40,389 nucleotides of DNA, taken from Methanomicrobiales archaeon (GTDB taxonomy: Archaea; Halobacteriota; Methanomicrobia; Methanomicrobiales; JACTUA01). Made by a program: the position numbers and the translations under genes. Positions 31,577-40,348 of the stretch are shown piece after piece. How positions within the stretch are numbered: the stretch's first letter is position 1; every line of letters starts with the position of its first letter. The notes beneath the pieces are model-generated. The model made no database searches. It saw only the letters and a program-made list of their open reading frames with translations, and was not told where the DNA came from. The stretch is taken from NCBI GenBank assembly GCA_029907705.1, contig JARYLJ010000018.1, positions 1-40,389 on the forward strand, in the 5' to 3' direction.

Positions 31577-31770
31577 ACAAATCCTGTGGCCGTACCGCGA
31601 CTATTGCGGCCCTTCTACACTTCTAATGGTATCGCACGGATGTTATCTCCTTCCCTTCACCTCTGCGGCCGGAGCAATATCGGGCATGAAGGATCGGGTA
31701 TGAAGCGGCCGGAGGGCCTGGCATTCGGCCGCAGGGGCCACCCAGGAGAATAATTTAAAATGGAACTGTC

Positions 31771-32691
31771 TCAACTGAAAAATCCAGAGAGGCGATGAAT
31801 GAACCCGGCGATGGCGAACTTCAACCCCTCGAAAAATCCCTCCCCCTCGATCCTGATCCTGCCTGCATCGTACGCCTCCAGAAAGAGCAGCTCCTTGCGC
31901 TCCATTGCATCGACGGTCGCCTGATCGGTAAGGATGCCGAGTGTATTGTCGGGGAGGCTCCCCTCGCCCAGCCCGATCACCCTTCCGCCATCGGTGACGA
32001 TGAACGAGGGGGAGGAGTCCATGTACACATTCATGCGTGCCGTTCCAACCAGGCGTGCAAGGGCCGGATCGATCGCACCCGGATCCCCTACCGATCTGAT
32101 ATCCGCCCCCATCAGGCGCGGAATGACGAGCGGATCGCAGGATGGCACCTCCTTTGCCTCCGGGAGATCCTCGCAGCCTTCGGCACAGTAAAGGAGGTCG
32201 AGGAGTTCGTCGTACGACAGAGGATCGTCCCCCATATCCCCGCCCGTAATCACCGCCGCACCCTCCTCCCCATACTTATCGTAGAATATCGCACGATGGA
32301 TCAGGGGGTCGCTGTATGCCCGATCCCCTGTCGAGACACGGATGCGCGGGGTCGGTGTGAGGTTGCCTTCCGTTTCCCTCCGGTACTGCCCGATGCACTC
32401 CGGATCGAGCAGGCATCTCACCGGGTTGGCGCATACGCCGAGGACACACTCCCGTCCGAATCTCGGGCGCTCGTATGCCTTACAGCCGTATGCACCGCAC
32501 GTCATGTAACCGCTCACCGCGACGCAATGCGATGGATCGCTGCAGCCGCAGTAGAGGCACTCGTAGCAGGCCGGCTTCAATGGGTCCGTGCAGCCGATGT
32601 TGTTGCCTGTATCGCACCCCTCGCCCTGATTGAAATAGCCGTTGCCGCAGTCCGCTGCGCTCCTTATCGTCACATCGGTGGTCTCAATCAC
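31771..32691 (-). CDS. C-terminal part of a secreted Cys-rich protein (after in-frame TAG)
   Basis: This 306-residue frame opens at a GTG without Shine-Dalgarno and has no signal peptide. Its first part is an extracellular-type Cys-rich region (CGNGYFNQGEGCDTGNNIGC, then CYECLYCGCSDPSHC and more). The following 180 residues form a mixed alpha/beta domain ending in RIRIEGEGFFEGLKFAIAGF; the last 70 residues faintly recall SCP2-like segments of secreted archaeal proteins (low confidence). Upstream the same frame stays open for 10 codons back to the TAG that ends the 105-aa signal-peptide gene. The two are most simply one gene of 423 codons (33039-31771) with an amber codon at position 106. Confidence 0.75.
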   Translation of the reverse strand: MIETTDVTIRSAADCGNGYFNQGEGCDTGNNIGCTDPLKPACYECLYCGCSDPSHCVAVSGYMTCGAYGCKAYERPRFGRECVLGVCANPVRCLLDPECIGQYRRETEGNLTPTPRIRVSTGDRAYSDPLIHRAIFYDKYGEEGAAVITGGDMGDDPLSYDELLDLLYCAEGCEDLPEAKEVPSCDPLVIPRLMGADIRSVGDPGAIDPALARLVGTARMNVYMDSSPSFIVTDGGRVIGLGEGSLPDNTLGILTDQATVDAMERKELLFLEAYDAGRIRIEGEGFFEGLKFAIAGFIHRLSGFFS

Positions 32692-32721
32692 CTTCGTTCC
32701 GGGCGGGATGTCGTTCGCCCT

Positions 32722-33039
32722 CTAGATGTCCCAGGGATAGTCAGCCACGGCCTTCCACGCTGCTCCGGGAAGGTCGAACCTCTTTTTGTACACCACCGTC
32801 CCGTTGCAGATCACCACGCAGACGAGGTTCCTGAAGCGTTCATCCACTTCGAAGGCCCTGCGCTCTCCGATCTTCATGGGTATGGAGATCGCGAGCTCGC
32901 CCCTCAGATCGAAACACTTCAGGATCACGCAGTCATCGGGAGGACAGCGGGCACCGAAATGGAAGGTGAAGGTGTGGGAGACCGCCCCTGCAACGGTCAC
33001 CAGCACCACGACTGCCAAAACGAGGAGATAGTATCTCAT
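32722..33039 (-). CDS. Signal-peptide-bearing N-terminal part of the TAG-interrupted secreted protein
   Basis: The 105-residue product starts MRYYLLVLAVVVLVTVAGAV, a signal peptide with likely cleavage near residue 20. It continues as a small beta-rich domain with four or five Cys (RCPPDDCVILKCF, LVCVVICNG). It ends at WDI followed by TAG, after which the frame continues into the Cys-rich gene with no intervening stop. The ATG has no Shine-Dalgarno but lies 25-30 nt after a TATA-like GATATACC, suggesting a leaderless mRNA. Alone it would be a short secreted protein; joined it supplies the export signal for the downstream part. Confidence 0.75.
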   Translation of the reverse strand: MRYYLLVLAVVVLVTVAGAVSHTFTFHFGARCPPDDCVILKCFDLRGELAISIPMKIGERRAFEVDERFRNLVCVVICNGTVVYKKRFDLPGAAWKAVADYPWDI

Positions 33040-33061
33040 CAGAAGGTGAGGTGATGCTGCC

Positions 33062-33069
33062 GGTATATC
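33062..33069 (-). promoter_or_regulatory. TATA box of the secreted Cys-rich gene (leaderless)
   Basis: On the minus strand GATATACC is centred about 26 nt before the ATG at 33039, the usual archaeal TATA to start-site distance. The sequence between is pyrimidine-rich and has no ribosome binding site. Transcription would therefore begin at or next to the start codon. Confidence 0.5.
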
Positions 33070-33222
33070 ACCTTTCTCCCGCGGAAGAACAGGGGTCGGA
33101 GGTGGCACGGCGGCATATCGCCACTCGCCTGCCTCAGAGAGCGGGGGAGAGAAGGCGGGCGCCATCGGGCGAACACCGGACCCATGCGAATCCTGATGGT
33201 TCCGGAGTAACCACTCTTCTGC

Positions 33223-34566: not shown

Positions 34567-34980
34567 ATGACGACGCTCATCGATCTTTCCACTGCATTGC
34601 ATTACTTTGCTATCATAACCATAGAACTCGTCCTGCTCTTCATCGGGATCAGTTTTCTCGTGGGGCTGATCAGGGAGTATATACCGGAAGAACGGATACG
34701 ATCTGCCCTCAGGGATCGGAATTATGGTCTGGGGAATGTACTCGGCGCTGGTTTTGGTGCGCTCACCCCGTTCTGCTCCTGCTCCACCATACCGATACTC
34801 GTGGGCCTGCTGGACATAGGTGTTCCCTTCGGCATCGCCTATTCCTTCCTTATCGCATCGCCGCTTCTCAATCCGGTCATATTCTCTCTCCTGCTGGCCC
34901 TCTTCGGCATCGTACCAACGCTCGTCAACACAGTCATCGGATTCGCGACCGCAGTGCTTTCAGGTATCCTGCTGCAATGA
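34567..34980 (+). pseudogene. DUF318/ArsP-type permease, N-terminal part, ended by in-frame TGA
   Basis: The 137-residue frame has GAGAGG 5 nt before its ATG and encodes the first half of a multi-pass membrane permease. Hydrophobic helices are interrupted by the family's loop FCSCSTIPILVGLLDIGVPF and end IASPLLNPVIF. The family (DUF318, including arsenic-resistance ArsP proteins) is usually about 300 residues. Here a TGA at 34978-34980 stops it after SGILLQ, yet the frame continues without another stop to 35502 with the second half of the protein. The joined gene has 312 codons. It is therefore probably a pseudogene, or the TGA is a sequencing error. Confidence 0.8.
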
Positions 34981-35007
34981 GCAGGCTATGCGAAGTACGT
35001 CAAAGCG

Positions 35008-35502
35008 GTGACGCTGGAACAGCACGGGAACTGCGATTGTGCCGGGGTGCCATCCCCCTCCCTCCGTGTCGAGGCACGGATGAGCCGATCCCTCAGGTTC
35101 GCTCTCTCGCTGTTCCGCCAGGTCGTGCCATATCTGATTCTGGGTGCCGGAATCGGAGCGTTCATCTATGGATTTGTGCCAGAAAGTCTTATCGTGACCC
35201 TGGCCGGCCCCCAGAATCCAATGGCCATACCGGTCGCCGCAATCATCGGCATCCCGATGTATATACGTGCGGAGACCATCATCCCGATCAGTGCCGTGCT
35301 CCTGTTGAAGGGGATGGGGATCGTTGCGGTAATGGCGCTGATCATCGGGGGGGGGGCGGGCGCCAGCATGCCTGAAGTCACGCTTCTGGCCTCCATCTTC
35401 GAGAAACGGCTGGTGGCCGCCTTCGTGATCACGATACTGGGAGTGGCAATCTTCGCAGGCGCAATCTTTCAGATGCTCTCGACCGGAGGGCTGCTGGGAT
35501 GA
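35008..35502 (+). pseudogene. DUF318/ArsP-type permease, C-terminal part
   Basis: This frame is in phase with the upstream half. Counting from the TGA, the sequence AGYAKYVKAVTLEQHGNCDC follows directly, then a linker and membrane helices (VVPYLILGAGIGAFIYGFVP, IPVAAIIGIPMYIRAETIIP, MALIIGGGAGASMPEVTLLA). It ends with a hydrophobic helix and TGA. The GTG at 35008 has no Shine-Dalgarno and lies inside the domain, so it is not a credible independent start. The second half shows no further damage, which suggests a recent change. Confidence 0.8.
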
Positions 35503-37490: not shown

Positions 37491-40348
37491 CGTCTGATCC
37501 CCTCACAGGAGTAAATCTGGTCATTTAACGGACAATGCGAGGTACTCTCCGCGTAATAGTCATTCGAACAGCCCTCGTCCATATTCCTGCAGTAATCGTA
37601 CCAGGCAACCATCCTCCCTCCGGAGTATACAGGTGGGTATCCGCTTCCTCCGAAGATCTCGCCACCCCTGTTTCCGACGGTATCCACGTAGTGGAACTTG
37701 GACTCGCCGGGGAAGCGCACGAGGTTGTAACCATGTCCATCCCCGTTCACGGAGAAGACGTCGTCATGGCTGTATCCCAGTTTCCGGAGGATCGTGGTCA
37801 GTGCGAAGGAGTAATCCACACAGGTTCCGGTGGAGAGCCGGTTGATGCTCGCATGGGCCGGGACATCCGCCCAGCTGTCGGAATTTCTCCTGAAATCGGT
37901 GTCGGACTTCCAGTACCCCGATTTGCCATATTTTCCGAAAATCCACGCATCGTAGTACTCGCAGCGGTGTCCTGACATCATGAAGTCCGGGTAGTTCTGA
38001 GGCTCCCCGCCGCACGCCCGACTCGTCCCCATCTCCCAGGCAGCTGGATTCACCCGCCAGTAGGAGCATGTATCGGGGCACAGATCGTCACCGTAGCAGC
38101 AGATCTCCCCATAGAAGTACCCCTGCATGTAGGCATGGCAGGATCCGAACGCATAGATCGTATACAGGGCAAGCGCCCTTTTATAGCTGGAAGGATTGTA
38201 GGATGTGTCGATCCCTGAACCTGCACGGGCCAGACCGCAGGCGCACTCCTTCTCCGCCTCGCGCGTTCCGGTGAAGCGGGTGGCATAGTCCGGATGCTCG
38301 ACGCAGGTGATGGCATCACGCACGATGAAGTCGAGATCCGGATGGCAGACCTCCACGATCGCGCACGAATCGTCCTCCGTGTTCATCCCGATCGCAGGCC
38401 CCTGATCCGTGGACCAGTGCTCGGTGCACGGAGTATCTGCTGGTGCATATTTCGCACCGGTGCTGCATCGCGCACAGGGCGGGCAGTAGCGCCCTCCGCA
38501 GTCCACGCCCTCCTCGTCCCGGTCCTGCACACGATTATCGCACGTGATCTCGAAGGTCCAGTCAGTCTCCATGCAGTTGTTCAGCTCTCCTGAGGGCGCC
38601 GGTGTGATCTCGTCCACCTCGTTACTGCGGTCTGCACAGATCTGGACATGCACACGGCTCGTATCGGGTCGCCACGTGCTGGAGAAAGAAACGGTTGTAG
38701 CGGCTCCAGCGGAAAGCGAAGGCGCACGACTCCTGCCGAATTCGTGGTAGTTCAGATACAGGATCGTATCCGACGCTGGAGCGGAAGCTCTGCCCTGATT
38801 CGCAACCGTATACCTGATCACGTATTCGGTGCACGGCGGGGTGCATTCAAAGAAGACGCTGGTGATTACCAGATCCGGTTTCGGAATGACCGTGGTCGGG
38901 ACCTCCTCGCAGGTGATGTTGAGCGTGTAATTGTTGTTTGCCTCGCTGATCTCGGCCGTCCTGTTGCTGTGATCCGCCATGATGAGGAGCGTATCGGATG
39001 TTCCGGTGCAGGTCCGCATCGTGTAGTTGAACCAGAACTCCTCCTCCCTGGACTCTCCCGGACCCAGGCGTTCCGTCCCATCCTGGCCTGTGTACACGCC
39101 ATCGATGAAGAGCCCGGTCTCGGTAAAAGGAGTATAACCTGTCCCCTCGTTCTTCACCTCGTACCCGACGCGGTACACCATCCCGGGCAGCGGCGTTAAC
39201 CAGGCTCGCCTGATGACGAGGTCCGGTATCCTTCCGGGCAAGGGTCCGACCGTGCAGTTCCAAGTCGCGGTCATCTCGTTGTTCCCCTCGTTCTCCTCGA
39301 TCAAGGTATCGGGGGGATCGACGACGACGCGAACCGTGTCGGTCGTGCCTGTACAACTCCCGATATAGGAGAAGGTATCGGTGAACGTGCCCGAGGAGGG
39401 GATGCGTGGAACTGTGCGGGTACCGACCCATGTCCCATCGAGGTAGAGACGGGCCTCTGTAGATGGGCTTTCCGTATCGCCCTTGTTCAGAATGGTGAAT
39501 TCGATGGGAGTGTCCGAATTGTATGCCCTTGTCGTATAGGTGAGATTCTCCTCTCCGACATGCCTTATGCTCGAGACCGCAAGGTCAGGTTTCTCCACCA
39601 CGGCAGGACAGGTGTAGGAGCGTTCCTTATAGTTATTGTCTTCGTTGGACTCCGATATGGCATTCGGGTAATCCGCGATCGCCGCCAGAAGATCGGAACC
39701 GCCCGTGCACTCACCCCTGTAGGGGAACTGCCCCACCGTATTCTGGCCGGGATTCAGTCCCGCTACGAGATGCTCTCCGATCTTCACTCCATCGATATAG
39801 AGGGCGGTGGTACTCGGCCCGGAAGCAGCATCTCCCGCATTCTGGATGATGTATCTGAACTCATGGAATGCCGGCCAGTCGTCCGTATAGACATCCACTA
39901 TTCGGAGATCCGGCTTGCCAGTGGGTATCGTAGTAGGTACAGGCGTGGTGGTGGGAGGCGGGAGCTGATAGCAGTACAGCGGGTTCTGCTTCGCGTCGTA
40001 GCCGCACAGGATCTGATCCTTCCCGCATAGCTTGTATCCCAGCTTGAGCGCCGCGTCGGGGGAGGTGCAGATACATCCCTCCGGACACGCTGGCGGGGCC
40101 TTCGTCGTCACCGGTTTTTCATAACAGTACTTGGGGTTCTGCTTCGCATCGTAGCCACAGAGGATCTGCTTGCCCCCGCAGAATGTAGCCGCTCCCATCT
40201 GCTTCGCCTCTTCCGCTCCCAGGCAGATGCAGTTTGAGGGGCAGGTTACCTGGGCACTTGCCGTTCCCAGTATGATGAAGCAGAACAGCAGCAACGCAAT
40301 GGCAATTCTCTCCAGCCCTATAACAGCTCCTTCCACGGCAGTGTACAC
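37487..40348 (-). CDS. Large secreted CARDB-repeat protein with transglutaminase-like domain
   Basis: The 953-residue product starts with a signal peptide (hydrophobic stretch about 15-32, ending TASA). Two copies of a Cys-rich repeat follow (about 36-77 and 87-128; each has ILCGYDAKQNP then YCY). Thr/Pro linkers lead to four CARDB-like adhesion domains (each opening PDL(V/R/A)I and carrying GD or G-x-x-NNY ends) at about 143-600. A DEEGVDCGGRYCPPC motif leads to the C-terminal 350 residues, which end in a transglutaminase/papain-like core. C843 (GTCVDYSFALTTILRKLGY), H872 (GDGHGYNLV) and D889 (HYVDTVGN) form an intact triad. The start is GTG with no clear Shine-Dalgarno, so it is uncertain. 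It could crosslink or cleave surface proteins. Confidence 0.88.
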   Translation of the reverse strand: MYTAVEGAVIGLERIAIALLLFCFIILGTASAQVTCPSNCICLGAEEAKQMGAATFCGGKQILCGYDAKQNPKYCYEKPVTTKAPPACPEGCICTSPDAALKLGYKLCGKDQILCGYDAKQNPLYCYQLPPPTTTPVPTTIPTGKPDLRIVDVYTDDWPAFHEFRYIIQNAGDAASGPSTTALYIDGVKIGEHLVAGLNPGQNTVGQFPYRGECTGGSDLLAAIADYPNAISESNEDNNYKERSYTCPAVVEKPDLAVSSIRHVGEENLTYTTRAYNSDTPIEFTILNKGDTESPSTEARLYLDGTWVGTRTVPRIPSSGTFTDTFSYIGSCTGTTDTVRVVVDPPDTLIEENEGNNEMTATWNCTVGPLPGRIPDLVIRRAWLTPLPGMVYRVGYEVKNEGTGYTPFTETGLFIDGVYTGQDGTERLGPGESREEEFWFNYTMRTCTGTSDTLLIMADHSNRTAEISEANNNYTLNITCEEVPTTVIPKPDLVITSVFFECTPPCTEYVIRYTVANQGRASAPASDTILYLNYHEFGRSRAPSLSAGAATTVSFSSTWRPDTSRVHVQICADRSNEVDEITPAPSGELNNCMETDWTFEITCDNRVQDRDEEGVDCGGRYCPPCARCSTGAKYAPADTPCTEHWSTDQGPAIGMNTEDDSCAIVEVCHPDLDFIVRDAITCVEHPDYATRFTGTREAEKECACGLARAGSGIDTSYNPSSYKRALALYTIYAFGSCHAYMQGYFYGEICCYGDDLCPDTCSYWRVNPAAWEMGTSRACGGEPQNYPDFMMSGHRCEYYDAWIFGKYGKSGYWKSDTDFRRNSDSWADVPAHASINRLSTGTCVDYSFALTTILRKLGYSHDDVFSVNGDGHGYNLVRFPGESKFHYVDTVGNRGGEIFGGSGYPPVYSGGRMVAWYDYCRNMDEGCSNDYYAESTSHCPLNDQIYSCEGIRR

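Follow-up and report, generated by a model that had tools for sequence, protein, structure and literature searches.

The interrupted reading frame

An in-frame TAG in the window (the whole 40,389-nucleotide stretch of DNA analysed here) raises the question of whether a gene for a secreted, Cys-rich protein is read through, decoded with pyrrolysine, split in two, or simply broken. From 33039 to 31771, the minus strand forms a single 423-codon frame with one internal TAG at 32722-32724, laid out as 105 codons, the TAG (codon 106), 316 codons and a terminal TGA. The locus has the following features:

31577..33222, gap of 1,646 bp flanked by Cas4-like and DUF3467 genes, holding the interrupted gene
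32725..33039, minus strand, pre-TAG part, 105 codons (translation; coding score +18 nats)
32722..32724, minus strand, in-frame TAG, codon 106, in a predicted linker past the beta-rich domain
31774..32721, minus strand, post-TAG part, 316 codons, in the same frame as the pre-TAG part and without a signal peptide; first start a GTG 10 codons in
32395..32649, minus strand, Cys-rich module, residues 131-215, 14 Cys, CGNG...GEGCD motif; similar CGNG module in locus L002
31774..32061, minus strand, C-terminal exported domain of about 100 residues, also found in other exported proteins of the phylum

An order-5, 3-periodic coding model trained on the same genome, with all five other frames compared on both sides of the TAG, places this frame ahead of every other by 18 nats before the TAG and by 47 nats after it, and GC3 is 0.77 before and 0.74 after. 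A run of 316 stop-free codons following the TAG has a probability of ~3e-4 to 4e-5 from composition. Before and after the TAG, the coding signal therefore lies in the same frame, as expected of a pseudogene, and together with translation it confirms the single internal TAG within a 423-codon frame reported in the preliminary description. Upstream, the minus frame stays open to 33522, but this extension is the antisense strand of the DUF3467 gene, with a reversed codon-position bias, so that the ATG at 33039 is the likely start. An antisense ORF at 31795-33054 (plus strand) was also considered as a real gene and was ruled out, since coding composition favours the minus frame.

In our judgement this is most probably an ordinary case (probability roughly 0.7), in which a lineage-specific gene for an exported protein has recently been broken by one nonsense codon. 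Breakage was the last of three options in the preliminary description, and it is supported by continuous coding on both sides of the TAG, by the lack of pyrrolysine machinery, and by genes elsewhere in the genome that are broken by TAA or TGA. As a separate observation, CTAG is depleted ~2.3-fold in this genome (249 occurrences against 574 expected from trinucleotides), and the internal TAG is itself part of a CTAG.

One gene or two

The only hydrophobic core typical of a signal peptide precedes the TAG, within a signal peptide at approximately residues 1-20; the 12-residue Kyte-Doolittle mean reaches 3.5 there and at best 1.4 after the TAG, in agreement with the earlier statement that the post-TAG Cys-rich part has no signal peptide of its own. 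A small domain follows, in which six beta strands are predicted, ending near residue 89 (AlphaFold, pLDDT mostly 52-69 over the domain), and which contains 5 of the 22 cysteines, the other 17 being located after the TAG. AlphaFold models are poor (mean pLDDT 40 and 38), and a PDB fold search with the first of them gives nothing significant. Pfam, NCBIfam and PDB sequence searches return no significant family, and no homologue of the pre-TAG part is found in the genomes of the order and phylum.

The TAG falls past the predicted end of the beta-rich domain, which would suit two genes, that is, a 105-residue secreted protein that terminates at the TAG, followed by a second, separate protein initiated at GTG 32691 or GTG 32673. 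These codons are the first possible starts after the TAG, ten and 16 codons on, and the ten open codons described previously are therefore as reported. The first ATG is at 32505, ~72 codons on. The claim that the downstream part has no ribosome binding site holds for GTG 32691, which is not preceded by a good Shine-Dalgarno sequence, but is weakened for GTG 32673 by an AGGTGAT that overlaps GTG 32691 and lies ~13 nt before the second start. Against two genes, the second product would have no signal peptide, whereas 34 of 38 homologous frames have one, no ATG occurs for 72 codons past the TAG, and the first 40 codons after the stop favour the same frame by 7 nats. We therefore regard two genes as quite unlikely. 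A single 423-codon gene, as originally proposed, is the better reading, because the post-TAG part lacks both an early ATG and a signal peptide while homologues of its C-terminal domain are exported and uninterrupted; the junction itself, however, is unalignable, as the searches gave no relative of the N-terminal part. The shared coding frame, and an export signal present only upstream, agree with this proposal.

A family of exported archaeal proteins

The C-terminal domain, for which there is no Pfam or NCBIfam model, defines a family of exported archaeal proteins. In 34 of the 38 matched homologous frames a strongly hydrophobic, signal-like N-terminal stretch is present in the same uninterrupted frame, and at least two of the other four are truncated where the available sequence stretch ends. 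Among the 232 genomes of the order, 28 have the domain, and it also occurs elsewhere in the phylum (carriers L002, L040, L041, L044, L050 and L198-L224). Its closest relative, L002 in genome G070, is a single 453-residue frame consisting of a signal peptide, a metalloprotease-like region (called from the motif HEAGHMMGLDD, Pfam giving no match), a CGNG Cys module and the C-terminal domain, and L224 is an uninterrupted, exported paralogue in the same genome as the window. The window protein thus resembles L002, L040, L041, L044, L050 and L224 in having the C-terminal domain and an export signal, and resembles L002 also in the CGNG Cys module. In these relatives, however, no stop interrupts the frame, and the N-terminal parts are unrelated (metalloprotease-like, by eye dockerin-like, and others). 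Only the C-terminal domain and the Cys module have relatives, none of which aligns across codon 106, and searches of the order (232 genomes, identical to those of the class group) and of the phylum (394 genomes) gave no orthologue. Searches of viral, phage, plasmid and genome-contig sequences likewise yield no close relatives. A by-product of this comparison is an uncatalogued exported domain that is common to many archaea of the phylum.

By eye the C-terminal domain looks SCP2-like. No significant Pfam or PDB profile match is obtained for this idea; one of eight members hits Alkyl_sulf_C at an E value of 0.05, and the single-sequence model is too poor to compare (pLDDT 38). In L224, a dockerin-like repeat seems to be placed inside the domain.

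Pyrrolysine and readthrough

Pyrrolysine is known in methanogens, and the organism, which carries mcrA, is a methanogen, making decoding of the TAG as pyrrolysine an obvious idea. The genome is 98.85% complete, and a search of it for PylS, PylD and a CUA tRNA, part of the check proposed in the preliminary description, reveals no PylS or PylD above cut-off and, in the sequence scanned, no CUA tRNA. PylSn is absent in 41 genomes of the order, the best PylSc matches in the organism's own genome score 24-33 bits against a cut-off of 178, and the best PylD match scores 18.3 bits against a cut-off of 150, the Methanosarcina control being positive for PylS and PylD. On inspection, two PylSc-matching loci read as phosphoseryl-tRNA synthetase (SepRS) and PheRS alpha. 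None of 44 tRNAs genome-wide has a CUA anticodon, the two intron-bearing tRNAs being read as Met CAU and Tyr GUA. Over 1.6 of the genome's 1.79 Mb, neither ARAGORN nor a search for anticodon arms gives a CUA tRNA. In the literature, UAG decoding is tied to pylT and pylS (PMC2933860). The gene shares with the pyrrolysine-encoding mtmB, mtbB and mttB an in-frame TAG in a methanogen, but differs from them in that no pyl genes or tRNA-Pyl were found, it does not encode a methyltransferase, and no unusual RNA structure lies downstream (PMC2933860). A pyrrolysine reading is effectively excluded, short of a pyl cluster in the 1-2% of the genome that is missing, and the case cautions against taking an in-frame TAG in a methanogen as evidence of pyrrolysine.

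TAG is an ordinary stop codon in this genome, ending tsaC and altogether 182 of 1,415 predicted genes (12.9%), which bears out the earlier view that it is not generally recoded. At coding-stop-coding junctions TAG accounts for 28 of 180 stops (15.6%), a share not clearly enriched over that at gene ends; the junction list is noisy, most of its entries being adjacent genes in a common frame, and it served solely for comparing stop types. Downstream of the TAG, RNA structure is not unusual (z -0.5). An Rfam search gives nothing above threshold.

Functional readthrough, in which near-cognate decoding of the TAG would yield some full-length exported protein, has in its favour that the gene contains no second lesion; one lesion alone is as compatible with functional readthrough as with recent decay. 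Moreover, single in-frame stops that purifying selection maintains are reportedly widespread among bacteria, where functional readthrough is proposed to be frequent (PMC7918605). The window gene resembles the nonsense-interrupted prokaryotic genes of that study, which are pseudogenes or possible readthrough cases, in having one in-frame stop, an intact frame and coding signal on both sides, but it has no close relatives on which downstream selection could be gauged. On the other side, no suppressor tRNA and no relative with the same stop were found, and neither the RNA structure nor the frequency of TAG at junctions departs clearly from the ordinary. With TAA- and TGA-interrupted genes also present in the genome, this option from the preliminary description gains no positive support, and we consider it very doubtful. 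More improbable still is that readthrough without pyrrolysine reaches a useful level, one archaeal gene thereby giving both a short secreted and a long Cys-rich exported form.

Origin and breakage of the gene

In 13 relatives the Cas4-like gene directly adjoins a divergently oriented DUF3467 gene; none of these relatives (0 of 13) has a match to the window gene at this site, and the gap contains no direct repeats suggesting a mobile element. The window gene is a lineage-specific insertion; because the flanking genes adjoin without it, it is probably dispensable in the order, and such an origin fits tolerance of its loss. In the preferred reading of a recently broken gene, an exported-protein gene comprising signal peptide, beta-rich domain, Cys-rich module and C-terminal domain would have been inserted between the two neighbours, and a single nonsense codon would later have broken it, translation ending at codon 106. 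The product would be at most a short secreted fragment, and the Cys-rich and C-terminal parts would either not be made or not be exported. The lesion would be recent, because the frame has acquired no further stop or frameshift and its codon composition remains intact. Presumably, translation in the cell does end at the TAG, and losing the gene is tolerated. Against recent breakage, the searches gave no orthologue that has a sense codon at position 106, so that the ancestral sense codon is a presumed one.

Single in-frame stops also occur in three or more other genes of the genome, so the type of lesion is not specific to TAG:

L172 7075-9783 (G000:C16), magnesium-transporting P-type ATPase MgtA, one in-frame TAA after residue 82, otherwise intact
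window 34567-35499, plus strand, permease-like gene, one in-frame TGA after residue 137, a stop spanned by the family match
L165 1118-3097 (G000:C7), secreted Cys-rich protein, one in-frame TGA; the related L050 continues across the position

Read through its TAA, the MgtA ATPase scores 1,323 bits to NF011702, and an uninterrupted relative, 44% identical, is located in L133 of the same genome. The permease matches the NCBIfam SO_0444 Cu/Zn efflux family with an E value of 1.5e-27, below the family cut-off. Because such TAA- and TGA-interrupted genes occur in the same genome, a non-specific cause, either mutation or sequence error, is the simplest for the TAG too, and genes of this kind form the background against which a TAG case should be judged.

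A consensus or assembly error would mean that 32722-32724 is a sense codon in the real genome and that the gene is intact. The single lesion with full coding signal on either side would be expected in that event, the assembly consists of 70 contigs, and the other single-stop interruptions could also come from errors or strain variants. Single-base consensus errors should be rare, however, and for at least one of the other interrupted genes, mgtA, the genome also contains an uninterrupted relative, which is what real, tolerated decay would lead one to expect. An error is therefore unlikely, and we rank it as less likely than recent nonsense breakage. Finally, the Cys repeats of the L165 protein recur in the window, in the protein near 39968-40243.
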